This document shows, in pieces, positions 17,898-33,331 of a stretch of DNA of 43,030 nt. The DNA is from Planctomycetota bacterium (GTDB lineage: Bacteria; Planctomycetota; Planctomycetia; Gemmatales; Gemmataceae). Position 1 is the stretch's first letter. Every line of letters starts with the position of its first letter. The position numbers and the translations under genes were made by a program. The stretch lies in NCBI GenBank assembly GCA_021809185.1, contig JAKBAI010000016.1:1-43030 (forward strand). The letters run 5' to 3'. The notes under the pieces were generated by a model. That model was not told the origin of the DNA. It searched no databases and was given only the letters and a program-made list of their open reading frames with translations.

Positions 17898-19103
17898 ATG
17901 ACAAATACACCTAGTCAATCGACTAGCTCTTCTTCCGATTCCCCCTTTACACTCTCTCCATCATTCGTCCCTCAGTTTCATTATCCAGACCGATTGCTTG
18001 TTGGTCCTGGTCCAAGTAATGTCGATCCTATCGTCCTATCGACCATGAGCCGGCCACTCTTAGGTCACTTAGATCCTGATTTCCTTCATTTAATGTCCAT
18101 GACTCAGGATATGTTGCGTCACCTCTATCGAACGGATTATCCTCTGACCATACCCATTAGCGCAACAGGAATGGCAGGAATGGAATGTTGCTTTGTCAAT
18201 TTAATCGAGCCTGGAGATACCGTTATCGTTTGTTGTAATGGTTTCTTTAGTCAACGAATGGTAGATATTGCGACTCGGGCAGGAGCCAAAGTAATTACTT
18301 TTCAACGTCCATGGGGAGAGGTTTTCGAAGAGAATGATCTCAATGCGATAGAAGAAATCTTAAAAAAAGAAAAACCTAAAGCTCTGGGAATTGTTCATGC
18401 CGAAACATCGACCGGAGCTTGTCAGCCTTTGGATAGACTTGGAAAACTTTGTCACCAATACGGAACGCTTTTGATTGTCGATGCGGTCACCTCCCTAGGA
18501 TGTATTCCATTGGAAGTAAAAAAATGGGAAATAGATGCCGTTTACAGTTGTTCGCAAAAAGGGTTGAGCTGTCCCCCTGGGTTATCCCCAGTTAGCTTTA
18601 GTCCCCGCGCGGAAGAGGTAATGGCCGGTCGAAAAACAAAAGTGCAAAGTTGGTATCTAGACCTCACCATGATCCGCCAATATTGGAATAGCGACCGTGC
18701 TTATCACCACACCGCTCCGATAACGATGATTTTTGCACTTTTTGAAGGTCTCCGGCTTATTTTTACCCAAGGACTGGAAAACCGCTGGGAGATGCATCAA
18801 AAGAATCATCTTGCCCTGAAAGCTGGTCTTGAAGCAATAGGACTTGAATATCAAGCAAATCCTAAATATCAACTTCCTCAACTCAACGTTGTGAAGATCC
18901 CCATCGGAATTGAAGATCTAAAATTCCGGAAGACACTATTAAACGAGTATCGAATGGAAATTGGGGGTGGATTGGGAGAATTCAAAGGAAAAGTATGGCG
19001 AATCGGTCTCATGGGGTGCAATTCAAATCCAGCGATTGTAAGCAAAATTCTATCAAACATGGAGCAATGTTTAATCTCGCAAGGGAAAGCTATCCCAAAA
19101 TAA
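17898..19103 (+). CDS. PLP-dependent aminotransferase, alanine-glyoxylate / serine-pyruvate type (class V)
   Basis: 401 residues from the ATG at 17898. That start has AAGGA (17884-17888) nine bases upstream, whereas the ATG at 17889 directly abuts it; the earlier start would add three residues. The N-terminal motif LLVGPGPSNVDPIVLSTMSRPLLGHLDP and the lysine motif CSQK221GLSCPPGLSPVSFS are those of AGXT-like class V aminotransferases, which transfer an amino group from alanine or serine to glyoxylate or pyruvate. AVTSLG, at the end of the VDAVTSLG strand, places the PLP-ring aspartate. The first ~25 residues are a Ser/Thr-rich tail not present in most homologues. It may belong to glycine-serine or glyoxylate metabolism, but no pathway neighbour is present. 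The substrate pair is inferred from family only. Confidence 0.92.
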   Translation: MTNTPSQSTSSSSDSPFTLSPSFVPQFHYPDRLLVGPGPSNVDPIVLSTMSRPLLGHLDPDFLHLMSMTQDMLRHLYRTDYPLTIPISATGMAGMECCFVNLIEPGDTVIVCCNGFFSQRMVDIATRAGAKVITFQRPWGEVFEENDLNAIEEILKKEKPKALGIVHAETSTGACQPLDRLGKLCHQYGTLLIVDAVTSLGCIPLEVKKWEIDAVYSCSQKGLSCPPGLSPVSFSPRAEEVMAGRKTKVQSWYLDLTMIRQYWNSDRAYHHTAPITMIFALFEGLRLIFTQGLENRWEMHQKNHLALKAGLEAIGLEYQANPKYQLPQLNVVKIPIGIEDLKFRKTLLNEYRMEIGGGLGEFKGKVWRIGLMGCNSNPAIVSKILSNMEQCLISQGKAIPK

Positions 19104-19120
19104 AGTGTTTAACCCTGCGA

Positions 19121-19209
19121 AAGGCGGGGAAAGTAGGCGGGGAAAGTAGGCAGTAGGCAGATGGCAGTAGGCAGTAGGCGGGGAAAGTAGGCAGATGGCA
19201 GTAGGCAGA
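19121..19209. repeat. GTAGGCA-type heptad repeat block (copy A)
   Basis: A chain of seven-base units GTAGGCA, GATGGCA and GTAGGCG, broken by GGGAAA spacers. 38 bases (19132-19169) are identical to 34203-34240 in this window. On the other strand the units spell a run that would translate as PTAYC/LPTAY-like peptides, but nothing suggests it is coding. It resembles the heptamer 'short tandemly repeated repetitive' elements known from other bacteria, notably cyanobacteria. It starts within 20 bases of the aminotransferase stop. Confidence 0.85.
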
Positions 19210-19249
19210 GGAAAGCAAGAAGAGGAAATTAAGAATAGGAAAGTAGGTC

Positions 19250-19350
19250 GCCGAAACCATCTTATTGCCGAAACCATCTTATTGCCGAAACCATCTTATT
19301 GCCGAAACCATCTTATTGCCGAAACCATCTTATTGCCGAAACCATCTTAT
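19250..19350. repeat. Six tandem 17-bp units
   Basis: The unit GCCGAAACCATCTTATT starts at 19250, 19267, 19284, 19301, 19318 and 19335; the copies are identical except for the very end of the last. There are no spacers, so it is a minisatellite and not a CRISPR array. The identity suggests recent expansion or constant homogenisation. It follows the heptad block with about 40 bases of GA-rich DNA between. Confidence 0.95.
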
Positions 19351-19812
19351 CTAAAACATTTAAAGTTAGATTATCTCCGTTTGAGTTGCAATTTTTCCAA
19401 TTGATTCTTATCTAAATCGCCACATTTCATTGCAACAGAAATCCGAGTAAAAATTGAGATTTTTTACTAAGTCGAAGTTCAAAGAAAATTTTTCTTCTGC
19501 TCAAATCTTCGACCAAATCGATCCCCATTTCCTATGAAAACTTTATAAGTTTTCTGGGCTAGCTAGTCAAAACAGTTTAAATCAAACGTTATACCTATTA
19601 ATATAAAGAGGATTTTATCATTTGCTCACTTTGAGGTCATCTTCATCGATATATAATAATAAAACAGTAAATAAAGTTGAATGCAAGGAAAGTCCCTATT
19701 CCATCCCCAAAATAGTAATTGAAGTTATGTGTGGTATTTTCGTCGATTAATAATAATGAGATTATCTCTAAAGATGTAATCCATAAAATTAAAAACGGAG
19801 AGAGGTTTTTCA
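19351..19812. other. 462-bp AT-rich leader region of the two-component operon
   Basis: No gene or terminator was recognised. One promoter-like site is at 19630-19657. The ribosome site GGAGAGAGG (19797-19805) for the TTG start at 19813 lies at its end. Confidence 0.5.
19630..19657 (+). promoter_or_regulatory. Candidate promoter for the two-component operon
   Basis: TTTGAG (19630-19635), 16 nt, TATAAT (19652-19657). The -10 is perfect, the -35 weak. It would leave a leader of about 150 nt before the response-regulator start. Confidence 0.35.
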
Positions 19813-20553
19813 TTGTCTGTTAAAATTTTGTTAATTGAAGATGATACAGAAATTGCAGAATTTATCAGTCTCGGCTTAAGAGATGAAGGATTTTCTATTG
19901 AACACGTTCGTGATGGACATTCGGGAGAAGATCGTTTACTCAAAGAGTCTTGGGATTTGGTCATTCTCGACTGGTGGATTCCTGGACCAGATGGGGTGAC
20001 ATTATTGAAATCTTTCCGTGCCGCAGGTAAAACAACTCCTGTATTATTCTTAACCGCTCGAGATACAATCGCCAATCGAGTCGAAGGTTTGAACACAGGT
20101 GCAGATGATTATTTATGCAAACCATTTGCCTTTGAAGAATTGCTGGCTCGTTCGAAAGCGTTATTGAGGAGATCGACTTCAGCGCCGGGAACCCTTTGGA
20201 AATATAAAGATGTTAGCTTTGATCTTTCGACGAATCGAGCAGAACGAGCGGGAAATATTTTATTATTGACAGCTAGGGAACAATCGTTACTCTTTTTTTT
20301 CATTCGACATCCAGATGAAGTCTTATCGAGAACTCGACTTTATGAACATGTCTGGCAAGAGCAATATGATGGCCTATCGAATACTCTTGAAGTTCACATC
20401 ATGGAATTAAGAAGAAAATTAGAAGCCCATGGTCCGCGTATCATCCATACCGTCCGGGGGCGAGGATATATGCTGGGGGAACCACTTCCGGGAGAATCGC
20501 TTAGCGAAATGGTCTCAGAGAATTCACCGGATTTCTCTTTGAAATCCTCTTGA
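19813..20553 (+). CDS. OmpR/PhoB-type response regulator
   Basis: 246 residues. The start is TTG at 19813, fixed by GGAGAGAGG seven bases upstream and by the immediate SVKILLIEDD receiver opening. Receiver domain 1-120: acidic pocket D10/D11, phosphoacceptor D53 (LVILDWW), T81 and K103 (CKPF). Winged-helix DNA-binding domain about 130-225, with the LTAREQSLLFFFIRHPDEVLSR and YEHVW...SNTLEVHIMELRRKLE...IHTVRGRGYML motifs of the family. It is followed 63 bp later by its histidine kinase and then an RND efflux operon, an arrangement like CusRS or CzcRS next to their pumps. It probably activates the downstream operon on signal; direct target sites are not proven here. A short tail after 228 is variable. 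Confidence 0.95.
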   Translation: MSVKILLIEDDTEIAEFISLGLRDEGFSIEHVRDGHSGEDRLLKESWDLVILDWWIPGPDGVTLLKSFRAAGKTTPVLFLTARDTIANRVEGLNTGADDYLCKPFAFEELLARSKALLRRSTSAPGTLWKYKDVSFDLSTNRAERAGNILLLTAREQSLLFFFIRHPDEVLSRTRLYEHVWQEQYDGLSNTLEVHIMELRRKLEAHGPRIIHTVRGRGYMLGEPLPGESLSEMVSENSPDFSLKSS

Positions 20554-20616
20554 GTTAAATACAAATTTAAAGAAGATGAAAAAATCAGATCCATTTCATT
20601 ATAAGAGCAAGAAAGT

Positions 20617-22254
20617 ATGAGTATTACGAATCGGCTCTCTATTTTTTTCCTATCTACACTAGCAATAGTTCTCTTCGGTTTTTCTTTAACCATTTATGTC
20701 CTTGGAGATCGTTATCTGCATCAGCAAGAAAATGATCGACTGGAACATTCGGAACAAACACTCGTTGCAGCGATTGAGATCCATGCGGAGGATGTCGAGT
20801 GGGAACCGTTGGAAAGAAAAGTTTTTCTTGGAGAATATTCAACCCTAGATCAGATACGATGGGCACTGCACGATGAAGAAGGAAATTTAATTGATTGTTC
20901 GCAAAATTTAGAAATTCCTGATGAAACCAGAGAATGTCGCGGTTGGTTCGTTAGGAAATGTCTCATTACTGCTGGCAAATTTGAACCGCTGAAATCAGCG
21001 AAAGGTCCTGTGTTTATCGAAGGGGCCCTTTCTGATGTTTTCGTTAAAAAGGTGATTCCAGGAAATATCCAATTACCCACGGACCGAACGTATCATGGAT
21101 CTAGTCTACGCATAACAGTTGCCACTTCGAGCATTCCTTTAAAAACAACTCTCTATCGATTTGGTCTAACGCTCCTTGTCCTCCCTTTAATCATCTTGTT
21201 CCTTGCAACAATCTGGGGTCGATGGTTATGCCGAAGAGCTTTGAAGCCGGTTTTTGAAATGGTTGAAACTACTCGAACCATCCAGAATCAGCTGGAGTCT
21301 AAATGTTTGCTTCATATTCCCAATAGTCACGATGAATTACAAGAATTGGGCATTGCGTTTAATGAAATTCTACAAGCTTTGCGATTAGCGTTAGATCGAG
21401 AAAGGCGATTTACGGCGGATGCCTCCCATCAACTTAGAACTCCTTTAACTGCCATTTTGGGCCAGATCGATGTTGCTTTGAGAAAAGAGCGTACTATCTC
21501 AGAGTATAAGCGCTTACTCGCAATCTTGAAAAATCGCGGTCAAGAATTACATCAAATCATCGAGTCGCTACTGTTCTTGGCCAGAGCCGATTCAGGTGAA
21601 TCGGTCCCAGATTTAAGAATCATCGATCTCCGAGATTGGTGCGATACTTGGATGGAGAAGTGGCGCGATCGCCCGCGCAGTAACGATCTTAAAATAATCT
21701 CTCCCACTTGTAATGTTTTAATTTATGCCCAACCTTCGTTACTTGGCCAAATCCTCGATAACTTAGTCGATAATGCCATCAAGTACAGCCCTTCGGGGAG
21801 TGAGATCCTAATTCAAATTAAGCTATGTTCACTTCCTAAGCCTACTGGCGATTCAGCAGAGCTGGAATTCCTCAATAACGTGAATTCGCATCAAAAATCG
21901 GAAGCAGATCTTGGAGCCGACCATGCGATTCTTTCCACATGCTTAGCCCAGCAGAATCCCCCTTTACCGAATTCCCAAACCACATCGAAACCCCTGTTCT
22001 CTCCTACAGATTACGTTTCTTTATCGGTTATTGATCATGGGAGCGGGATTGAAAAGGAAGATTTGCCACTAATTTTTCAGCCATTTTATCGCTCTAAAAA
22101 AGCAAGATGGGTCGGAACTCCAGGGATAGGATTAGGTTTAACACTTGTTGACCGGATTACCCATTTACTCCATGGTAAATTGACCGTCTTGAGTGAATCT
22201 GGAAAAGGGAGTGAATTTCAACTCTGCTTTCCCAGAGTAATCAAAGAAAATTAA
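20617..22254 (+). CDS. Membrane sensor histidine kinase with enlarged ATPase domain
   Basis: 545 residues. Two transmembrane segments (about 10-32 and 186-206) bracket a periplasmic sensor of about 150 residues. Then a HAMP-like linker (LCRRALKPVFEMVETTRTI), HisKA with H271 in ASHQLRTPLT, and HATPase_c: N box LDNLVDN386AIKYSP, G1 D473HGSGI, F box FQPFYRSK and G2 GIGLGLTLV. Between N386 and D473 there are 86 residues; about 35 is usual, so an insert of roughly 50, rich in Ser/Asn/Gln/Pro, sits between ATPase strands. All catalytic boxes remain, so it should be active. Partner is the preceding response regulator. The architecture (QseC/CusS-like, with two helices and a periplasmic loop) fits sensing of an envelope signal such as a metal ion or toxic compound; the ligand is unknown. 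Confidence 0.93.
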   Translation: MSITNRLSIFFLSTLAIVLFGFSLTIYVLGDRYLHQQENDRLEHSEQTLVAAIEIHAEDVEWEPLERKVFLGEYSTLDQIRWALHDEEGNLIDCSQNLEIPDETRECRGWFVRKCLITAGKFEPLKSAKGPVFIEGALSDVFVKKVIPGNIQLPTDRTYHGSSLRITVATSSIPLKTTLYRFGLTLLVLPLIILFLATIWGRWLCRRALKPVFEMVETTRTIQNQLESKCLLHIPNSHDELQELGIAFNEILQALRLALDRERRFTADASHQLRTPLTAILGQIDVALRKERTISEYKRLLAILKNRGQELHQIIESLLFLARADSGESVPDLRIIDLRDWCDTWMEKWRDRPRSNDLKIISPTCNVLIYAQPSLLGQILDNLVDNAIKYSPSGSEILIQIKLCSLPKPTGDSAELEFLNNVNSHQKSEADLGADHAILSTCLAQQNPPLPNSQTTSKPLFSPTDYVSLSVIDHGSGIEKEDLPLIFQPFYRSKKARWVGTPGIGLGLTLVDRITHLLHGKLTVLSESGKGSEFQLCFPRVIKEN

Positions 22255-22256
22255 AA

Positions 22257-22295
22257 ACTTGAATGAATTTTTAATCATTCAGTTAATTTTTGTGT
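22257..22295 (+). terminator. Probable intrinsic terminator after the kinase gene
   Basis: TGAATGA (22260-22266) pairs with TCATTCA (22275-22281), extendable outward through AAC/GTT with one bulged base, followed by TTAATTTTTG. It begins right at the stop, suggesting the regulator pair and the pump genes are separate transcripts. Confidence 0.55.
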
Positions 22296-22472
22296 GTTTC
22301 GTAATTATTTTTATCCAAGATTTAGTATTATCTTTTCCAGAATTAATAAATGATAAACAAGAATATCCGATATGATTGCTATAAGTCGAATAATTTGATT
22401 TAAAACTTAAAGATAAATTCTAAATTTGTTAATCTGGTGAAAAAATAAGGGTTATTACAAATTTATATTCGT

Positions 22473-22500
22473 ATTCTTGAATTTCAAAAAGTTCAAGAAT
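22473..22500. promoter_or_regulatory. Perfect inverted repeat upstream of the efflux operon (possible operator)
   Basis: ATTCTTGAA (22473-22481) and TTCAAGAAT (22492-22500) with a 10-base spacer lie about 190 bases before the likely start of the outer membrane factor gene, in the 325-440-bp region that must hold the pump promoter. The half-site spacing of 19 bases centre to centre would put both on nearly the same DNA face. OmpR-type regulators more often use direct repeats, so its user is unknown. The rest of the gap is AT-rich with nothing recognised. Confidence 0.4.
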
Positions 22501-22693
22501 CGAGTTGAATAATCTTAAAAGTCTTTAATTAAAAGAGGTTTAGAGTACCTCTAGCTCATTCTATTCTCTTTATGAAGAAATGAAAAATTTCAGGATGTTT
22601 TTTGTTCATTCGAAAATTCGATCATCAAGAATAATGAAGAAGATACACATGGAAAAGCACAATAGTCAAGCTGATACAATCAAGGAAGGTCAA

Positions 22694-24616
22694 ATGTTGA
22701 TTTCTTCATTCCTTACACCCACCCTTTCCAAAAGATCGAGGTATTTGAGATGGGGAATCTTCGGAATTAGTTTTGGATGCTTTCTGGGGTGCCAAACTCC
22801 AAAACGATTACAAGAGATAATGCCTGATGCTGCTCTTTCACCCAAACTCTCCCTTACCCCGCAACAAAACGATAGTCAAAACCAAGTGATTAAACGAACA
22901 CTAGCAACAGATACCAATGCCTCAGGGAGTTCGGGATCATCGAAGACGATCGGGAATAATGACCCATCTCTTAAACAAATAGGGTTTACGACAAAGGGGG
23001 AAGAAATAACTCCAGAGGAAGGTACTGAAACCGGCACTACTTTTGCAACAGGAGATGGTAATTACCAATCCGTTAAAGCCGTGGAGAAGAAGCCAAAAAC
23101 TGAATTTCCGATAACAAATCCATACGACACAAAAAGTAGAATCTCTCCTCAGAATCTCAAAGTGAATCAAGCCCTGAATCCGATCGTAAATCCAGAAATG
23201 GGTGGAGTTACGGTACAACCGGTTAATCGATCGGCTAATTCTGGAACCATGGACAATCAGGAAATTCCTAAAGAATTAAATCTCCCTACGGCAATAACTC
23301 GATCACTCCTATCAAATCCTGATTTGACAACTCTCCGTGGTCAGCTCAATGTCAACCAAGCCATGGTTGGGGTTTCTAAAGTATATCCTTGGAATCCATT
23401 CGTCCAAGCAGAGTATTTCCCCACGGGTAGACCATTTGTAGCCAGTACTCCTGGTCAACCTGCCTCGGGAGCTGGGTATGCAAACTATTATATTTGGGTC
23501 ATGCAACGATTTGAGATTGCCCATCAGAGACGCTATCGCGTTCAAAGTGCTATGGCAGGTATGAATCAAACCCAATGGAATATTTTTCAAGGCGAGCTGC
23601 TCAATATTTCGCAAACTTCTCGACTCTATTTTACACTGCTTTATCAAAAAGAATTGGTCAAACTCGCTAAGGAAATCGTCAGCTTGAATGACAGTTTAGA
23701 AAAGACGATCGAAGCTCGATTTAAAGGAGGGTTAGCCAAAGCTGCGGAATTTACGACCGCTCAGGTGGCCGCAAGGCAAGCGCGGCGACAATTAGCACTA
23801 GCAGAAACAAATTATCAGATTGCCCTACGAGGACTAATTCAACAATTGAATTTACCATCCAATCATGAACTAGTAATTCAGGATCGCTTGACCGATTTTC
23901 AATGGCATACGCTTTCGGGAGAATCGGGTTCAGAAGATATAACTGCTGTTGCTGCACAATCCATCGAGGGAAGACCGGATATTCTTGCAGCCCAAGCTGG
24001 GTTTCGAGTATCACTTGCCAATTATCAGCTGGCCAAAGCGGCTATGATCCCAGATATTCAGGCAGGTCCTATATACCAAACCGCGGATGATACGACGAGC
24101 TATCTCGGTTTCCGTTTTCAGATGGATATTCCTGTTTTTAATTCGGGAGCACCATTACGCAGACAACGCTTAGCCGAAATGAATCAGCAAAATCTCACCG
24201 TTCAGCAACTGAAACAGCGAGCCTTACGCGAAGCAGAATCAGCACTGACCCAATTCGAAGAGATTCTGAAAATGGTCAAGAAAATGCAAGCGACCTCAAC
24301 AGATTCTTCCAAAGAATTAGCTCTGATGACGAAACAATTCGAAGCAGGTCAGACCGATATTCTTTCTATATTGACCTTGCAAACCAATTTGGTCCAAGAA
24401 CAAAGGGCCTATATCGACTTATTGAATCAGCTCGCACAAGCAGCGGCAAATGTGGTTCAAACTACCGGCTTACCCCCTGTTCGAATTGTTCAATCGTCTG
24501 CTCAAAATCCAGCAGTATCTGATTCCGGAACCACTCCTCCAACATCTAAAGAGCCTGTAGAAAAGAAATCGAAACCTAAAATAATTGAAAACAAAATCCC
24601 TGGATTAAAAGATTAA
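22694..24616 (+). CDS. TolC-family outer membrane efflux lipoprotein
   Basis: About 640 residues from the ATG at 22694. This start is chosen because AGGAAGG lies four bases upstream and because it gives a normal lipoprotein signal: basic residues (SKRSRYLR), a hydrophobic stretch, and a lipobox ending F-L-G-Cys33. Earlier in-frame ATGs (22580, 22634, 22649) would add up to 38 hydrophilic residues. A low-complexity linker spans about 40-190. The OMF domain follows: two outer membrane efflux repeats with long coiled coils (e.g. LNDSLEKTIEARFKGGLAKAAEFTTAQVAARQARRQLALAE and the later KQFEAGQTDILSILTLQTNLVQEQRAY). As trimers these form the exit duct of tripartite pumps, docking to the adaptor encoded next. 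The stop is 88 bp before the adaptor gene. Confidence 0.92.
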   Translation: MLISSFLTPTLSKRSRYLRWGIFGISFGCFLGCQTPKRLQEIMPDAALSPKLSLTPQQNDSQNQVIKRTLATDTNASGSSGSSKTIGNNDPSLKQIGFTTKGEEITPEEGTETGTTFATGDGNYQSVKAVEKKPKTEFPITNPYDTKSRISPQNLKVNQALNPIVNPEMGGVTVQPVNRSANSGTMDNQEIPKELNLPTAITRSLLSNPDLTTLRGQLNVNQAMVGVSKVYPWNPFVQAEYFPTGRPFVASTPGQPASGAGYANYYIWVMQRFEIAHQRRYRVQSAMAGMNQTQWNIFQGELLNISQTSRLYFTLLYQKELVKLAKEIVSLNDSLEKTIEARFKGGLAKAAEFTTAQVAARQARRQLALAETNYQIALRGLIQQLNLPSNHELVIQDRLTDFQWHTLSGESGSEDITAVAAQSIEGRPDILAAQAGFRVSLANYQLAKAAMIPDIQAGPIYQTADDTTSYLGFRFQMDIPVFNSGAPLRRQRLAEMNQQNLTVQQLKQRALREAESALTQFEEILKMVKKMQATSTDSSKELALMTKQFEAGQTDILSILTLQTNLVQEQRAYIDLLNQLAQAAANVVQTTGLPPVRIVQSSAQNPAVSDSGTTPPTSKEPVEKKSKPKIIENKIPGLKD

Positions 24617-24704
24617 AAAATAGAACTCTAATAATTTAGAAATGAATGGAAGTAAACCTTAACTTTCAAACTTGATTCACTACTCCTTAGGAAAATGAAG
24701 ATTT

Positions 24705-26390
24705 ATGTATTCCATGAAAAAGCTGCGATTTTATTTTTGTCAGATAATACTATGTGCATTGCTTATCACCATTGCCAGTTGTAAACAAGAATCAGCTGCG
24801 CAACCAGAAGAGGAAGTTAAAGTTGCTCCGGTCAAAATGGAATCGGCCAAAAAGATCAAATTGGCTGAATGGACCGAACTATTCGGAACTATAATTCCTC
24901 TCCCAAACCACTCAGCGAAAGTAAGCGCGGTTCTAGAGGGGCATGTTCTTACTGTATTTAATAAGGGGAGTGGTGCCGATATCAGCGAAGGGAAACAGGT
25001 CAATAAAGGGGATTTGATTGTCAAATTAGATGATCGGATCCTGAAAGTCAATGAACAAAAAATCAAAGACACGATCGAAGATTTAGAAGAACAATATAGC
25101 CAAGCAGGTTTTGTCAAAGATCTTGCCCTGATCGATGTTGACCGTTTTAATAAACTACTTGCCAAGGAAGATCCTGGCAGCAAACTCCCCCTCATCTCTG
25201 AAATTGAATATAAAAAGGCAATCGTTCTGCAAAAAGATGCGGAATCTAAAATGCGATCGGTTCAATCCAAAATCAAAGCGGCTCAGGCCGATCTTAAAGC
25301 AGTCGAAGAGCAGATCGAATTTTACTCTTTGCGTGCTCCTATTTCGGGTAATTTAAGTATCGTCCAAGCTGTCCCCGGTCAAACACTTACCCCAGGCACC
25401 GTTGTGGCAGAAATCGTCGACCTGAATTGGATCGATGTTTTGTGCTATGCGCCTCCAGAAATTATATCTAAGATAGCAGTTGGCAAACCGGCTAAACTTC
25501 TTCTAGAATCGGTCCAAGGGGAATCTCATGAACACGATTCTCCCCATGAAAAAGAAAAAAAAGAGCCAGAAACTAAAGTAGAAAAGAAGGAAAAGGAAAA
25601 AGAAAAGGAGAAGGAAAAAGAAACTGAAGCAAACGAAATTGAAGGGAAAGTGGTATATATCGCTTACCAAGCTCAACCAGAAACTGGGAACGTCCCCGTC
25701 AAAATAAGATTTCCAAACCACGATCACAAATTGCATATTAATTTAATTGTTCGAGTTGAAATTCAGACTCAGCAGGAAAAAGAGAGATTCGTCATCCCTG
25801 ATAGCTCGATCATGGAAGATCAAGAATTTGCTTCCGTCATTATTGCCGAAGAAGAGCACGATAAAAAAGATGATCACGATAAAAAAGACGATCACGATAA
25901 AAAAGACGATCACGATAAAAAAGACGATCACGATAAAAAAGACGATCACGATAAAAAAGATGACCACGATAAAAAAGATGACCACGATAAAAAAGATGAC
26001 CACGATAAAAAAGATGAGAAAAAATTCAAAGTAAAACGATTGCAAATTGTGCTTGGTATTCGTGACCGAGAACATCATCGAAGCGAGATCATCGAGTTGA
26101 TCGATCCTGAAAAAAAAGAAAAAATTCCTTTAAGCGAGGAACTGATATTCGTCGTTGAAGGAGGAAATGGTCTTAAAAACGACGATTTAGTGAAACAGAT
26201 AGAAGAAAAAGAAGAAGAGAAAGAAGCTAAAGAAAAGGAAGCAGATAAGGATCAAAAAAAATCTAAGAACTCTAAAGAGTCGCAAGAAGAAGATGATCCA
26301 AAAAATGAAAAGAAATCAAAAGTATCAAAAACCAATTTGCCAAAAGTAGGGGTAGCCCCTCAACCACGTGAAGTATCCAGTGACAAATAA
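24705..26390 (+). CDS. RND efflux periplasmic adaptor (MFP) lipoprotein with His/Asp-rich repeat
   Basis: 561 residues (ATG at 24714 is an equally good start, three residues shorter). Lipobox I-A-S-Cys at the end of a hydrophobic stretch (IILCALLITIASC) marks an anchored lipoprotein. Then barrel-sandwich/lipoyl halves around an alpha-hairpin (about 70-235: VSAVLEGHVLTVFNKGSG... and SLRAPISGNLSIVQAVPGQTLTPGTVVAEIVDL), and a beta-barrel. Two inserts are unusual: a His/Glu/Lys-rich one near 270-310, and at 385-438 nine tandem HDKKDD units with 9 His and many Asp. A last E/K/D-rich tail (about 495-545) is highly charged. CzcB- and CusB-type adaptors can also bear metal-binding extensions, so the repeats suggest metal capture in the periplasm. 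That is inference; a non-metal role is possible. It lies between the outer membrane factor and permease genes. Confidence 0.92.
   Translation: MYSMKKLRFYFCQIILCALLITIASCKQESAAQPEEEVKVAPVKMESAKKIKLAEWTELFGTIIPLPNHSAKVSAVLEGHVLTVFNKGSGADISEGKQVNKGDLIVKLDDRILKVNEQKIKDTIEDLEEQYSQAGFVKDLALIDVDRFNKLLAKEDPGSKLPLISEIEYKKAIVLQKDAESKMRSVQSKIKAAQADLKAVEEQIEFYSLRAPISGNLSIVQAVPGQTLTPGTVVAEIVDLNWIDVLCYAPPEIISKIAVGKPAKLLLESVQGESHEHDSPHEKEKKEPETKVEKKEKEKEKEKEKETEANEIEGKVVYIAYQAQPETGNVPVKIRFPNHDHKLHINLIVRVEIQTQQEKERFVIPDSSIMEDQEFASVIIAEEEHDKKDDHDKKDDHDKKDDHDKKDDHDKKDDHDKKDDHDKKDDHDKKDDHDKKDEKKFKVKRLQIVLGIRDREHHRSEIIELIDPEKKEKIPLSEELIFVVEGGNGLKNDDLVKQIEEKEEEKEAKEKEADKDQKKSKNSKESQEEDDPKNEKKSKVSKTNLPKVGVAPQPREVSSDK
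25857..26018 (+). repeat. Nine in-frame 18-bp repeats encoding HDKKD[DE]
   Basis: Units start every 18 bases from 25857. The coding pattern CAC GAT AAA AAA GAY GAY is constant in protein, but third bases fall in blocks: unit 1 ends GATGAT, units 2-5 end GACGAT, units 6-8 end GATGAC, unit 9 ends GATGAG. Blocks of identical neighbours indicate stepwise slippage or unequal crossing-over, so copy number probably varies among strains. Confidence 0.97.
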
Positions 26391-26427
26391 AATGGAACTT
26401 ACGGTCAAAAAACAAATTCCTAGAAGT

Positions 26428-26459
26428 CCGATTCGAAATCGGTTTTGTGGAAAATCCAC
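26428..26459 (+). promoter_or_regulatory. Two adjacent hairpins between adaptor and permease genes
   Basis: CCGATT (26428-26433) pairs with AATCGG (26437-26442) and is followed by TTTT; directly behind, GTGGA (26447-26451) pairs with TCCAC (26455-26459). The 144-bp gap contains no other feature. The first could be a weak terminator or attenuator that lowers permease output relative to the adaptor, or an RNA-stability element. Confidence 0.4.
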
Positions 26460-26534
26460 CTAATCACGCAAAACGCTAATAGTTCGTTATCTCTGAATAA
26501 GTATTTATAATAAATCGTAAACGGAAAATCATCT

Positions 26535-29500
26535 ATGCTGAATCTTGCATCTAGAGCAAAGCCTGTGTTTGGTGCAGTTTTATTAACAACTATATTACTT
26601 ACCATAGGGGGCATCTATTGTGTGATGCAGATGCCTTGCGGGATCTATCCCGAAGTTACTTTCCCTCGAATTGGCGTGGTGGGAAAAAAACCGGGACTGG
26701 ATTTAGTAAGTATGGAATTACAAGTAACACGCCCACTAGAATCTGCCGTTAGTTCTGTACAAGGGGTGCGATCGGTCCGCTCTTCGACGATCCGAGGCGG
26801 GAGCGAATTATCTCTCGATTTTGCTCCGGGCACCGACATGGTTCAGGCATTGCAATTAACCTGGAATCGCATAGGTGCAGCTCGAGGTCAATTACCCCCC
26901 GATATCGATTTGAGTGTCGAACAGATGACACCATCGATCTTCCCGATAATCTCGGTGGTGCCCACCGGGGGAAGTAGCTCATCACAATTGCGTGATTACG
27001 CTTTTTACGATCTCTCGCAAATGATGAAAACAATTCCCGATGTGCTCTATGCCAACGTCGCGGGGGGGGATCTTAGGGAAATTGAAGTTATCGCGAAACC
27101 CGAACGATTATTAGCAGCAGATCTATCCGCAGCAGACTTGGCTGATCAAATAAGCAAAGCTCATCGCCTGCAACCTGTCGGGCGTGTCGAAGGTTCCCCT
27201 TTGGCATTCCAGATTATGGTCAATACTCAAACCGCGAAAGCATACGAGATCGAAAACTTGGTCATTGCCACCAAAAACGGTCAGCCTTTGCGAGTCAAAG
27301 ATCTAGCCGAAGTCAAAATTCGCTATCAGGATCGAGTGCAGTCCGTTGGATTTGAAGGGAAAGACGCTGTGGTGGTCACTATTTTCCGACAGCCTAAAGG
27401 GAACACCTTACAAATTTCTAAAGATGTTCGCGCTTTACTTAAAAGACAACCACCCCCCGGAAATATAAAATACACCATCGTCTACGACCAATCGCACTTT
27501 GTTCGTACCGCTGTGGATAACGTTCGTGACGCCATTGTTGCTGGAAGTATATTCAGTATTTTAATTCTCTTTTTATTCTTGCGCAGTGTTCGAGCTACTC
27601 TTATTTCTGCCATTGCTATCCCGGTTGCCGTGGCCATCACCTTTTTAATTCTCTACTGGGTTGGCGAAACATTAAATCTGATGTCACTAGGGGGGATTGC
27701 CGTTGCCATCGGTTTGATTATCGACGATACGGTTGTCGTTATCGAAAATATTGCCAGACATTTGACCCCTGGCCACCAAGACCGATTACGGCAAGGTCGG
27801 CAAGCCAAAATCAAGAAGAGAATTTGGTTTCTCCCTTGGACTTGGCTCCGAAAAAAAATGCCTCCTCAACCAAGTCAAGAGGCGCATAAAAACTCTTCGG
27901 ATAGCAATGAATTGCATAAAAACAATCAAGATCCGGTTGACATTGCCTCTTCGGAAATAACCGGCGCTGTCATCGGATCGACTTTAACAACCGTTATCGT
28001 CTTCGTACCCTTAGCTTTAATCGTTGGGGTTTATGGGCAATTTTTTGCTTCGCTTAGTTGGGCATTATCGACAGCAGTTTTAGTTTCGATGGTGATCAGT
28101 TTAACCGTTATTCCCGTCCTCGCAGCCAAGTTCCTCGCGGGCAGGCCGATGCCTGAGCCAGGTATATTCTACCGCTTCTTTGCCGATCGCTATGAACGGC
28201 TTTTTGAAGCAACCTTGAAATTCCCTTTATTTACAATGATGATTTCGTTCTTGGCGATGATTGGTGGATATATTTTACTTACCGGAATTCAAGATAATAC
28301 TCCTCAAGAAAAACCGGGAGCAAAAAAATTTCTTTTCAAGCCGATTGAAACAGGATTGATGCCTATAATGGATGAAGGTTCATTAACAGTCGACTACCTC
28401 GCCCCTTCGGGCACTCCGCTCAGTCGAACCGAGGAAATGGCCAAAGTCCTCGAAGAGATACTTTTGGATAACCCCGATGTCGATGTCTATGTCCGTCGAA
28501 CCGGAACGCAAATGGGTCTATTTGCCACCAATACCAATCGCGGGGACATTCAAGTCTCTTTACGTCCTGCGGAAGAGGATATCGTCAGTCTATTTACGAA
28601 ACCGATGCGGCCAAAAATGTCTGATAAGGAATTTGAAAAAGAATTGAAATTAATCGGTAAAGAAGGGGTCCGTAAGAAATATCGCCGCCGACCGATCGCC
28701 GATATTATGAAAGAACTGGAAGATGAGACCGATGAACATTTTACCGATAACCAATTTAAAACAGAACGTATCCAGATTATGCAAGATCAATTAAACGATC
28801 TTTCTGGACAAAATAAACCGTTAGAGATAAAAGTATTCGGTCCAGACTATTCGGTTTTAAGACCTATTGCCGAACAGATTGGCGAACTCTTCGAGAAGAA
28901 AGGGAAAGGCAAGGGAATCAAAGAGGTAGATACCCACATTCGCGAAGGGAATCCAGACCTCAATGTTCAAGTGAAAGGTTTTTGGGCAGCGCGGGGGCTG
29001 ACCGCTATGGATGTTGAACGGCAATTGCGTGCCATGTATCTCGGTCAGATTGCAACCCAAGTTAAAGAGTCTTCCATGCGCATGACCGATGTCCGCGTTC
29101 GCTATGCCGATGATATTCGCTTTGGACGAGACCGATTCGACCCTGATCTCTTACTCAAACAATTAATCCTCTTACCGCCAAGCGTCTTGACAAATACCGG
29201 GCTATCGCCAATCGCAGGATCAGCAGGGATGCCGGTTATGCCTTTACCTGGACCAGCACGAGCGGTCCCTCTAAACACCATTGCCAAATTAGAAAGATTA
29301 CGTTCTCCCGATGAACAGTTCCGCGAAAATCAGCAACCTTGTGTTATTATTACTTCAGAACAGGATGAAAATGAAGCGGGGCTGGGCACCATCATTTCAA
29401 ATATCCGCGACTGGATGAAAGAAGTTCATCTCCCTGAAGGTTACCACTGGGAATTGGGAGGTCATTTTCTTAAACAACAAGAAGCGTTTCGCAGTTTGAC

Positions 29501-30041
29501 GATCGTGATGATTGTTGCAATATTTCTTATTTATATCTTATTGGCTTTTCAATTCCGATCGATGATTTTACCACTACTGATCTTTTTGGAACAGCCTTTG
29601 TCTTTAGTTAGTGGGCTCTTTGCGTTATGGATTACCGATACCCCTCTCAATGTCTCCAGTTATATGGGGGCTATCCTCCTGATCGGTCTCGATATGAAGA
29701 ATGGGATTCTCCTTGTCGAGTATATCCAACAACTCCTCCACGAAGGCATGGATCTAAAACCGGCTTTGCTCTTAGCAGGTCGAGTTCGATTCCGTCCTAT
29801 TTTAATGACGAGTTTAGCTGCGATATTGGGTCTGCTTCCTTTGGCTTTCGGTATTGGACCTGGTGCGCAAATGCAACAACCATTAGCTATTATGGTTATG
29901 GGCGGTTTAATTGCGAATATGCTCTTTACTCGTATGGTTATCCGTGCCGGTTATCTCCTCCTCGAACGTAGGAAAGTCCGCAAACAACGATTGCAAATAG
30001 GTTTACAAACAAACCCTGAGAATAAAAATTCGATAATCTAA
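26535..30041 (+). CDS. RND-family efflux permease
   Basis: 1168 residues, longer than the usual 1020-1060. N-terminal TM1, a porter domain (YPEVTFPRIGVV, then VQGVRSVRSST...), TM2-6 with GLIID397-D398-TVVVIEN in TM4, a second periplasmic loop (about 605-985), and TM8-12 with GLDMK1055NGILLVEY. The TM4 Asp-Asp and TM10 Lys match the proton relay of drug-type (HAE1/AcrB) pumps, not the classical CzcA/CusA pattern. Extra length is in a cytoplasmic loop after TM4 (about 407-463, with basic KKRIWFLPWTWLRKK) and a charged stretch of the second periplasmic loop (about 690-755). It should form the trimeric inner membrane engine with the preceding adaptor and outer membrane factor. The ATG at 26535 has only a weak Shine-Dalgarno. 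Closed by a terminator 20 bases downstream. Confidence 0.95.
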   Translation: MLNLASRAKPVFGAVLLTTILLTIGGIYCVMQMPCGIYPEVTFPRIGVVGKKPGLDLVSMELQVTRPLESAVSSVQGVRSVRSSTIRGGSELSLDFAPGTDMVQALQLTWNRIGAARGQLPPDIDLSVEQMTPSIFPIISVVPTGGSSSSQLRDYAFYDLSQMMKTIPDVLYANVAGGDLREIEVIAKPERLLAADLSAADLADQISKAHRLQPVGRVEGSPLAFQIMVNTQTAKAYEIENLVIATKNGQPLRVKDLAEVKIRYQDRVQSVGFEGKDAVVVTIFRQPKGNTLQISKDVRALLKRQPPPGNIKYTIVYDQSHFVRTAVDNVRDAIVAGSIFSILILFLFLRSVRATLISAIAIPVAVAITFLILYWVGETLNLMSLGGIAVAIGLIIDDTVVVIENIARHLTPGHQDRLRQGRQAKIKKRIWFLPWTWLRKKMPPQPSQEAHKNSSDSNELHKNNQDPVDIASSEITGAVIGSTLTTVIVFVPLALIVGVYGQFFASLSWALSTAVLVSMVISLTVIPVLAAKFLAGRPMPEPGIFYRFFADRYERLFEATLKFPLFTMMISFLAMIGGYILLTGIQDNTPQEKPGAKKFLFKPIETGLMPIMDEGSLTVDYLAPSGTPLSRTEEMAKVLEEILLDNPDVDVYVRRTGTQMGLFATNTNRGDIQVSLRPAEEDIVSLFTKPMRPKMSDKEFEKELKLIGKEGVRKKYRRRPIADIMKELEDETDEHFTDNQFKTERIQIMQDQLNDLSGQNKPLEIKVFGPDYSVLRPIAEQIGELFEKKGKGKGIKEVDTHIREGNPDLNVQVKGFWAARGLTAMDVERQLRAMYLGQIATQVKESSMRMTDVRVRYADDIRFGRDRFDPDLLLKQLILLPPSVLTNTGLSPIAGSAGMPVMPLPGPARAVPLNTIAKLERLRSPDEQFRENQQPCVIITSEQDENEAGLGTIISNIRDWMKEVHLPEGYHWELGGHFLKQQEAFRSLTIVMIVAIFLIYILLAFQFRSMILPLLIFLEQPLSLVSGLFALWITDTPLNVSSYMGAILLIGLDMKNGILLVEYIQQLLHEGMDLKPALLLAGRVRFRPILMTSLAAILGLLPLAFGIGPGAQMQQPLAIMVMGGLIANMLFTRMVIRAGYLLLERRKVRKQRLQIGLQTNPENKNSII

Positions 30042-30061
30042 TCCTCTTTATTTTGCGAAAT

Positions 30062-30082
30062 ACTTTCCTTGGGAAGTTTTTT
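30062..30082 (+). terminator. Terminator of the efflux operon
   Basis: ACTTTC (30062-30067) pairs with GGAAGT-type bases (30072-30077, one G-T wobble), followed by six T. Short stem but well placed. A second, longer imperfect hairpin follows (TTTTACAAGATCCC at 30092-30105 against GGGATTTTTGTAAAA at 30114-30128). Confidence 0.55.
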
Positions 30083-30129
30083 AGCTATGATTTTTACAAG
30101 ATCCCGTCGAAATGGGATTTTTGTAAAAG

Positions 30130-30580
30130 TACTGGAACGCAATTGATTAACGGAATACGAGCCGATCTTTGATCCAAAATCTTTCGTTCGAGATAGTCAT
30201 TATCGATTCAATGACCTATCTATCGAGTTGGCCCTCTTGCCTGCCAACCTATTATGATAGGTCATCTCCCTAGGAAAATTGCCAAGCTGAATTTTTAGAC
30301 GATCGGGGTTGTAATCTCTCTAATGCTCATTTCAACATAAGCGCCCACCGACTTCAGCTCGGAAGTCGGTGGAACTGCAAACCTCTCTATATCGAGCGAA
30401 TCAGATGAAAACCATCTTGCCTAAGAAAGGCTAAATTTTAATTATCAGACAATTAAAAGAAAATCGGCTTTTCTTGCGATTTATTTTACTTTCTCGCTCA
30501 ATACCCCTTGACTATCAACCTCATCTTCCCAAACTTTCTTAAGGAACTAACTGTTAGTAATTCATTCCTCGAGGATATTT
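30130..30580. other. Intergenic region before the double amidohydrolase
   Basis: No gene recognised in about 450 bp. It holds the GC-rich palindrome at 30345-30372; the amidohydrolase ribosome site GAGGATATTT is at its end. Confidence 0.5.
30345..30372. repeat. REP-like GC-rich palindrome
   Basis: CCACCGACTTC (30345-30355), loop AGCTCG, GAAGTCGGTGG (30362-30372): an 11-bp perfect stem, much more GC-rich than its surroundings, without a T-run. It has the look of a repetitive extragenic palindrome. Only one copy was noticed in this window. Confidence 0.6.
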
Positions 30581-33331
30581 ATGATTCGAAATTTGATTTT
30601 TTCCCTGGCTCTCATTCCGCTATTACCCTCTCTTATTTTTTTTCTTTCTCCTATATTCCATCCCATTTTATCCGCTTACTCCCCTACGGCCCTCCGTACT
30701 CCTTCAGAAAGTGCGATAAATCAAGAGGGAGGGATCGTTGCCTACTATGTCGGCAGAATTTATCCTGTCTCTTCTGCTCCAATTGATAATGGTTTATTGA
30801 TGATTCAGGGGGGTAAAATTTTAGCCGTGGGGAGTCAAAAAGATATTCCGATCCCCGATAACGCTATTATCAAACGAATGCCTAATGCGGTGATCATTCC
30901 AGGTCTTGTCGATTCTCATTCCCATATCGGGATCTATCCACGTCCATCGGTTACCGCTCACTCCGATGGGAATGAAATGAGTGGGCCTATCCAATCCGGT
31001 TTACGTGCTCTCGATGCCATTTTTCCTGACGATCCGGGAATAAGAATGGCAGTAGCCGGTGGAGTAACTACGGCGAATATCATGCCCGGTTCCGGAAATG
31101 CGATTGGCGGTCAAACACTATACGTTAAACTGCGTGGCAACACCATCGAAGAGATGCAGATCAAAGACGATAAAATTCTAGGCGGATTGAAAATGGCGAA
31201 TGGCGAAAATCCGAAAGGATACGGCAGGCGAAATCAGGCCCCTTATACCCGAATGAAAATAGCAGCCCTTCAGCGAGAACAATTTATCAAAGCAAGGGAT
31301 TATCAGAAAAAATGGCAAACCTATCGTGAGCAGGCCAAAACGAAAAAAGAGACTCCTCCCCCTGAAAAAGATTTAGCGCTGGAGCCTCTGGTCGAAGTTT
31401 TGGAAAAGAAGCGAACGGTGCATTTTCACTGCCATCGAGCGGATGACATTTATACAGCGATGCGCCTAGCGAAAGAATTCGACTTTGAACTCGTTATTCA
31501 ACACGGCACAGAATCGTATCGCATTGCTGATGAAATTGCCAAAAGAAAAATTCCGGTTTCATTAACTTTAGTCGATAGCCCCGGCGGCAAAGCCGAGGTA
31601 ATGGCTTTGCTCGAAGAAAACGCCATGATCCTCGAAAAAGCTGGGATCGATGTCGCCATCAACACCGATGACTTTATAACCGAATCCCGCTTTTATCTGC
31701 GTACAGGTTCCTTAGCGGTTCGTGGCGGCATGAGCGAAAGCGGTGCCTTGAAAGCCTTGACACAGGTTCCCGCAAAATTATTACATCTCGACCATCGGCT
31801 TGGTAGTCTCCAAAAAGGCTACGATGCCGATTTTGTAATTCTTTCTGGCTCCCCCTTTTCGGTTTATACTCAAGTTCTTGAAACCTATATTGACGGGATT
31901 CAGCGTTACGACCGCAATAAGAAAAACGATTGGTTATATTCAACGGGAGGCTATGGTATTGCCAACCGTGATCGTCTTCCTGAAGTGATTCCACCCCAGA
32001 AACCCTTAATAAGCACTACAGAGAAAATGGGAAAAGAGAAAATGGGGAACCAATCGCTGCAAAAACCTAAAGAAGTAATCAAAAACCGGTTTGCTGTGCA
32101 AGCGAAACGATTACATCTAGGCAATGGCAAGATGCTTCTCAATGCCGTAGTAATCGTTCAGGATGGGCATATTCAACAAGTTGGGGAACAGAGTAAAGTT
32201 GTCATCCCCAAAGATATACCCAGTTTTTTTGCTCCAGATGTCACACCCGGATTAATCGATGCCAGTACGGTTGTTGGTCTTAGTGGCTCTTATAATATTC
32301 CTGCTGATCAGGATCAGGATGAACGTTCCGACCCGATCCAACCCGATTTGCGCGTCTTGGATGGCATCAATCCCAGCGAAGGATTTATGGAATTTTTGCG
32401 TAGTAATGGGATAACCACTATCCATACGACACCGGGACATACGAATGTCATCGCTGGTCAAAGTGGGATCTTTCGAGCACTGGGAACCACGGTCGATCAG
32501 ATCACGTTGCGCTCTCCAGCAACATTGGTCATCAATCTGGGGGAAACTCCCAAACGTGCCTACAGCAGTACCAATCGCCCTCCCCTCACTCGAATGGGAA
32601 CAGCCAATCTCGTCCGATCTCAATTTTTAACCGCCCAAAATTATCTAGAAAAACGAAAAACTGCTGAAGGGAAAAAAGCTCCAAGAAATCTGAAAGCGGA
32701 AGCATTGATACCAGCTCTTGAAGGGAAAATCCCAGTGCTCTTTAATGCCCATCGTGCCGATGATCTACTCACCGCTCTACGCTTAGCCAAAGAATTCCAT
32801 CTCAAGCCGATTTTAAATCTCGCTACCGAGGGTTATCTCATCGCGGATGAATTAAAAGCTGCTAAAGTCCCGGTGATTGTCCACCCGACTTTACAACGTT
32901 CAGCGGCAAGTATGGAAACTCTTAATTCTTTTACCCCAAATGCTGCTATGCTTGCAAAAAAACAGATTCCCATCGCTATTTGCACCAGTTATGAAGGCTA
33001 TGTTCCTAAAACAAGGAATCTTCGAACCGAAGCCGCTTATGCCATGACCAATGGTCTTGGCCATGCCGCAGCAATGAAGGCCATCACTCTCGATGCAGCT
33101 AAGATCTTGGGAATCGATAAACAATACGGTTCTCTCGAAGTTGGAAAGATTGCGGATCTTGTGCTATTCGATGGCGACCCTTTTGAAAACAACACCCATG
33201 TTCTTTTCACGTTTATGAATGGTAAAATTGTTTATAGCCGAGAAGATTACCTCAAACTCCCTTTTAGTCGCCGAATTCTCCCTCTGCTTAGTGGGATTGG
33301 AGAACCTGCCTGTTGTCTAGGTAGTTGGTAA
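30581..33331 (+). CDS. Exported tandem amidohydrolase, second half catalytically degenerate
   Basis: 916 residues. A signal peptide or anchor (about 1-30) precedes two homologous amidohydrolase halves. Half 1 (about 45-480): PGLVDSH113SH115IG metal motif, HFHCHRADD, IQHGTES and INTDD, the standard ligand set of imidazolonepropionase/prolidase-like amidohydrolases. Half 2 (about 505-900): PGLIDASTVVG replaces HxH (S562 and V564 in the His places), FNAHRADD keeps one His, ILNLATEG replaces QHG, and ICTSYEG replaces the catalytic Asp. Both share GV/ITT....PG..N.I.GQ and P..TRM....L.R.QF..A..Y, so the gene arose by internal duplication. Half 1 is probably active on a C-N bond in the periplasm; half 2 probably structural or substrate-binding. 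Substrate unknown. Start fixed by GAGGATATTT-ATG. Ends before a bidirectional-looking terminator. Confidence 0.9.
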   Translation: MIRNLIFSLALIPLLPSLIFFLSPIFHPILSAYSPTALRTPSESAINQEGGIVAYYVGRIYPVSSAPIDNGLLMIQGGKILAVGSQKDIPIPDNAIIKRMPNAVIIPGLVDSHSHIGIYPRPSVTAHSDGNEMSGPIQSGLRALDAIFPDDPGIRMAVAGGVTTANIMPGSGNAIGGQTLYVKLRGNTIEEMQIKDDKILGGLKMANGENPKGYGRRNQAPYTRMKIAALQREQFIKARDYQKKWQTYREQAKTKKETPPPEKDLALEPLVEVLEKKRTVHFHCHRADDIYTAMRLAKEFDFELVIQHGTESYRIADEIAKRKIPVSLTLVDSPGGKAEVMALLEENAMILEKAGIDVAINTDDFITESRFYLRTGSLAVRGGMSESGALKALTQVPAKLLHLDHRLGSLQKGYDADFVILSGSPFSVYTQVLETYIDGIQRYDRNKKNDWLYSTGGYGIANRDRLPEVIPPQKPLISTTEKMGKEKMGNQSLQKPKEVIKNRFAVQAKRLHLGNGKMLLNAVVIVQDGHIQQVGEQSKVVIPKDIPSFFAPDVTPGLIDASTVVGLSGSYNIPADQDQDERSDPIQPDLRVLDGINPSEGFMEFLRSNGITTIHTTPGHTNVIAGQSGIFRALGTTVDQITLRSPATLVINLGETPKRAYSSTNRPPLTRMGTANLVRSQFLTAQNYLEKRKTAEGKKAPRNLKAEALIPALEGKIPVLFNAHRADDLLTALRLAKEFHLKPILNLATEGYLIADELKAAKVPVIVHPTLQRSAASMETLNSFTPNAAMLAKKQIPIAICTSYEGYVPKTRNLRTEAAYAMTNGLGHAAAMKAITLDAAKILGIDKQYGSLEVGKIADLVLFDGDPFENNTHVLFTFMNGKIVYSREDYLKLPFSRRILPLLSGIGEPACCLGSW

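Follow-up and report, generated by a model that had tools for sequence, protein, structure and literature searches.

An RND periplasmic adaptor encoded in the 43,030-nucleotide stretch of planctomycete DNA analysed here (the window) carries, in a β-hairpin turn of its membrane-proximal (MP) domain, a tandem array of nearly identical His-Asp-Lys-Lys-Asp-Asp units. The most probable account, to which we give a probability of roughly 0.7, is that a charged linker already present in the MP hairpin expanded recently and in this lineage alone, and that the resulting array is tolerated as a disordered polyampholyte loop which would be near neutral or at most a mild spacer. The protein is an ordinary adaptor in a new variant, rather than a new system, and no published account of a comparable array in an adaptor came up in a literature search. 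The features discussed below are the following.

19813..20553, + strand: OmpR-type response regulator, nearest NCBIfam model cztR_silR_copR, below cutoff
20617..22254, + strand: sensor histidine kinase, nearest NCBIfam model cztS_silS_copS, below cutoff
22580..24616, + strand: TolC-family outer membrane factor of 678 aa, with an OEP match
24705..26390, + strand: RND periplasmic adaptor (membrane fusion protein), an ORF of 561 aa with a lipoprotein-type N-terminus
25524..25631, + strand: second insert of the adaptor, residues ~274-309 (SHEHDSPHEKEKKEPETKVEKKEKEKEKEKEKETEA), in a length-variable loop between β-barrel strands
25857..26018, + strand: tandem array, 9 x 18 bp, encoding (HDKKDD)8-HDKKDE, residues 385-438, in the MP-domain β-hairpin turn
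26199..26387, + strand: charged C-terminal tail of the adaptor, residues 499-561 (63 aa)
26535..30041, + strand: RND permease of 1168 aa, with AcrB-type proton relay residues and no CusA Met triad

The array and its recent growth

The host protein is, as the earlier note had it, an otherwise ordinary RND adaptor. It scores 96.7 bits against the NCBIfam model TIGR01730 (RND_mfp; cutoff 94.9), contains the Pfam domains HlyD_D23 (PF16576) and HlyD_3 (PF13437) of the barrel-sandwich/HlyD type, has a Cys26 that is conserved in the alignment with homologues, and is encoded next to the RND permease gene. A contig scan with the adaptor as query returned a single distant match, from Aminicenantes, and a structure model computed from the single sequence (pLDDT 41, pTM 0.29) was too poor for use.

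The nine units, each of 18 bp, succeed one another with no indels and with the reading frame kept throughout. The earlier description of residues 385-438 as nine perfect HDKKDD units is right in position and for units 1-8, but unit 9 reads HDKKDE. TRF detects the array independently (period 18, 9.4 copies, 96% match, score 275), and a pattern search for 24-codon runs of K/N/Q/H/E/D codons finds only three loci in the 5.47-Mb genome, in which the reversed control pattern has no match; on these two results a chance repeat was rejected. An RNA element was also rejected, there being no Rfam match in 19000-30600. The 54 residues comprise 9 His, 26 Asp, 18 Lys and 1 Glu (17% His, 48% Asp and 33% Lys), and no HxH or HH motif lies inside the array.

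The history of the array can be read from its codons. Those for the first four positions, H, D2, K3 and K4, are CAC GAT AAA AAA in all nine units; CAC makes up 26% of the His codons in the window, and uniformity of this kind through independent codon choice has p ~1e-4, a rough figure based on window codon usage. The synonymous differences are grouped into the blocks that had been pointed out earlier, the DNA of units 2-5 being CACGATAAAAAAGACGAT throughout and that of units 6-8 CACGATAAAAAAGATGAC. Because the units share codons and their synonymous changes lie in blocks, growth of the array was recent, as the earlier note had also proposed, and the lack of any homologue with an array agrees with this. 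The growth probably took place by replication slippage or unequal recombination of the 18-bp unit, and since the array is recent, perfect repeats would be expected without selection.

The fragmented and probably metagenome-assembled state of the genome (407 contigs, 95% completeness) raises the question of whether the array is real with a wrong number of units, the 162 bp of near-identical units being as long as typical short reads. Synonymous markers distinguish unit 1, units 2-5, units 6-8 and unit 9, so that most junctions in the array can be told apart, and an error of this type would alter the unit count and leave the existence of the array untouched; we regard such an assembly effect as extremely unlikely.

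Site of insertion and charged repeats elsewhere

When 95 family genomes were searched with a profile, 11 orthologues besides the window protein came out (E <= 1.2e-146; next match 3e-41), and a search of 348 genomes from across the class yielded a further 15, more distant, homologues. The array is absent from all 26 when aligned, and a general feature of RND adaptors was therefore rejected. The comparison of homologous adaptors that had been suggested earlier thus yields neither an array nor a His-rich tract in any of the 26, their hairpins having between zero and three isolated His; homologues without such a tract are the first part of what the earlier note said would refute its metal reading. 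In the window protein the array is inserted between the strands ...VVVVEDVK and KVRRLRAVIG.... A profile built without this protein and aligned to AcrA residues 13-385, which include the MP domain, places the insertion between the two strands of a hairpin whose turn corresponds to AcrA GADDK (precursor residues 327-331), within the MP domain. From the domain order of such adaptors, the MP domain lies near the pump and the inner membrane (PMC4446572). The hairpin segment measures 67 residues in the window protein, 23-25 in the 11 family orthologues and 10 in the distant homologues. At the turn the family orthologues have a charged linker of ~13-15 residues (e.g. KVEKNAEGKDEQTG), with two or three isolated His in 4 of the 11, while the distant homologues have ~2 residues there, in the tight 10-residue turn VVREGKSV.

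Two other parts of the adaptor are enlarged. The second His/Glu-rich insert (HEHDSPHEKEKK) that had been noticed near residue 270 is present at residues ~274-309; it is rich in His, Glu and Lys and contains SHEHDSPHEKEKK... with a KE run after it. The barrel loop that contains it has 50 residues in the window protein, against 15-18 in the family and 21-33 in the distant homologues, one of which (G057) has a 33-residue loop with a Glu-rich insert and two His. The long acidic/basic tail, likewise noticed before, spans residues 499-561, its 63 residues comparing with 3-16 in the family orthologues and 12-86 in the distant homologues, where the longest (86 aa) is full of KKDDEHEK-like sequence. 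As length and charge vary among homologues at all three sites, array, insert and tail are to be seen as expansions at sites that were already variable. The permease shares 61-65% of its residues with its counterparts in the relatives G026, G032, G016 and G001 (pairwise columns compared), so that the pump is conserved, while identity of the adaptor is 34-39%.

The following course of events would account for these observations. A charged linker was already in place in the MP β-hairpin turn of an AcrA/MexA-like adaptor belonging to a tripartite pump with a HAE-like permease. An 18-bp unit was then presumably multiplied by slippage or recombination, giving a near-charge-balanced polyampholyte loop beside the inner membrane and the pump, predicted to be disordered from its composition only. 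The loop would be tolerated since the turn of the hairpin faces away from the folded core; it would be near neutral, or act at most as a spacer of an electrostatic or hydration kind. Two observations count against this explanation: with frame and unit perfectly kept over an array of 54 aa, the peptide may be under some selection, and nine His next to Asp could bind divalent metal weakly.

Related repeats are found in other proteins. A search of the 95 family genomes for two tandem X-D-K-K-D-D units, X being any of K, N, Q, H, E or D, gave matches in four genomes from four genera, that of the window included. The others are KDKKDD arrays in the C-tail of a secreted-type protein (G010), at the mature N-terminus of a protein that is TolC-like by eye (G089) and in a small charged protein (G099), and a class-wide scan for the unit pattern added one more case, DDKKDDDDKKDD. 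Among the family and class-wide scans, His occupies the X position in the window alone. His is probably best explained as one of the residues that can occupy X in such a unit, where Lys or Asp stands elsewhere.

Two separate observations concern low-complexity sequence in this and a related genome. A Lys/Asp/Glu-rich run directly precedes an OprB porin barrel both in this genome and in its relative G001 (L071:916-3045 and L073:1678-3258). It is one example of further charged low-complexity runs in this genome, and it suggests that envelope proteins of the group often have charged spacers. Contig C374 of the genome encodes (L070:2112-5489) a protein of 1125 aa with an N-terminal DHHHHDHHHHDHHHHDHHHHDHHHHDH DHHHH-type tract before a twin-arginine-like motif, SRRHFL; this is an iron-sulfur oxidoreductase with 4Fe-4S Pfam domains that looks like an ActB-type subunit of alternative complex III, and its tract would be a far better candidate for metal binding than the HDKKDD array.

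The operon and the rival explanations

The genes lie on the + strand in the order response regulator, sensor kinase, TolC-family channel, adaptor and RND permease. In G026 and G032 the complete set is found together with the regulator pair divergent (response regulator identity 59% and 70%), and in G016 and G001 adaptor and permease are adjacent, without the regulator pair within the 17-19 kb examined. Upstream of the response-regulator gene is an intergenic cluster of tandem arrays (19122-19350). Among them are six near-perfect copies of the 17-bp GCCGAAACCATCTTATT, of which the last differs in its final base; the rest of the genome has no copy. In the TolC-family protein the OEP match is preceded by ~230 additional N-terminal residues (22580-23270), rich in Ser, Thr, Asn, Gln and Pro. 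In the regions of residues ~410-465 and ~680-740 the permease has a basic and polar-rich cytoplasmic loop longer than that of its relatives, and an extra periplasmic segment that is common to the relatives and absent from AcrB and CusA.

Residues D407, D408, K940, R971 and T978, the proton relay of AcrB, are all five identical in the window permease and in its four relatives. The CusA-type residues are Met 573/623/672, D405, E939 and K984. The Met residues, E939 and K984 are missing from the window permease and the four relatives, which have D, V, D, D, K and I at the CusA-type positions; D405 alone of the residues tested is shared by the window, and it is present in AcrB too. Against the CusA/CzcA model TIGR00914 the permease scores 413.1 bits (cutoff 701.45), behind two multidrug models, and its best NCBIfam match, RND_permease_2, gives 509.6 bits (cutoff 1250), so that none of the models reaches its cutoff. 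Identity is 24% to AcrB and 25% to CusA. Its residues and scores thus mark the permease as HAE-like and not of the heavy-metal type, without making it a certified AcrB-like member. The two-component pair also scores below cutoff against TIGR01386/TIGR01387 (kinase 189.5 of 292.55, response regulator 196 of 279.2), and a gap in the alignment of the window sensor kinase lies opposite the Met/His segment of CusS, MMMPGHGHGHMEH; with such scores and this segment missing, the pair does not class with the CusRS/CzcRS metal systems.

These results bear on the proposal of the earlier note that the array is a periplasmic metal sponge or sensor, in which nine His-Asp units would bind Zn, Ni, Co or Cu, buffering the metal or gating the pump, with a capacity tuned by unit number. 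Nine evenly spaced His flanked by Asp, together with HEHDSPHEK in the second insert, speak for it, as do the cztR/cztS-type models nearest to the two-component pair and the fact that metal-efflux adaptors can have extra metal-binding domains, at the N-terminus in CusB and at the C-terminus in SilB (PMC4446572). As far as the sequences indicate, however, positive pointers to metal in the operon are the array itself and the weak resemblance of the regulators, nothing more. The HAE-like permease, with its AcrB relay (D-D...K) and D, V and D in place of the CusA Met residues, the kinase without the CusS segment, the Lys-rich composition without HxH or HH, and orthologues that lack a tract though parts of the operon are conserved all argue against the proposal, and the same unit occurs with Lys for His in unrelated proteins of other genera. 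A metal sponge or sensor is not supported and we consider it quite unlikely, whereas the coil or spacer role that the earlier note offered as a fallback gains support. A slippage-tunable His/Asp loop at the junction of adaptor, pump and membrane might instead respond to divalent metal, or by way of its nine His to pH, and adjust the otherwise HAE-like pump, strains differing in copy number as a form of contingency setting; this appears very unlikely.

A spacer under selection is a further alternative, in which the Lys/Asp repeat and the Lys/Glu runs would form a charged coil or brush docking the adaptor to the pump, to membrane head groups or to peptidoglycan, its length set by slippage. Charged expansions at three separate sites of one protein, the charged hairpin linker of the family orthologues, the tails of the distant homologues, charged and as long as 86 aa, and the position of the hairpin near inner membrane and pump (domain order from PMC4446572) are in keeping with such an electrostatic or structural element. 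However, neither sequence, length nor presence is conserved, and the 11 family orthologues manage with 23-25 hairpin residues, which leaves a selected element unlikely. We accordingly retain the tolerated expansion of a pre-existing linker as the best explanation.

Comparison with known systems

The adaptor is a clean example of how much low-complexity sequence such a component of a tripartite pump can take up, here at three sites in loops or the tail, and it identifies the turn of the MP-domain hairpin as tolerant of indels. A note of caution follows as well: a repeat containing His, when met in part of a transporter, does not on its own show metal handling, as unrelated proteins of related genera have this unit with Lys where the window protein has His.

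With the AcrA/MexA-type adaptors (TIGR01730; MexC-like PDB 9j3d and AcrA 5v5s) the window protein shares the domain order lipoyl, hairpin, β-barrel and MP; it differs from them in having 54 aa of tandem repeats at the turn of the MP hairpin, in a charged insert of ~32-36 aa in the barrel loop and in its 63-aa charged tail. CusB, ZneB and SilB of the HME-RND systems belong to the same adaptor superfamily, some with extra metal-binding termini (PMC4446572); their additions are N- or C-terminal domains that accompany a heavy-metal permease, in contrast to an internal low-complexity loop beside a HAE-like permease. The His-rich tracts of cobalamin-biosynthesis proteins are, like the array, of low complexity and contain His and Asp, but they average 53% His, 23% Asp and 9% Glu (PMC6821194), whereas the array has 17% His, is one third Lys and so is not dominated by His. 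The KDKKDD spacers in envelope proteins of the family have the same tandem hexapeptide unit with Lys for His, and they sit at protein ends or before a barrel, while the array of the window lies inside the β-hairpin of the adaptor.
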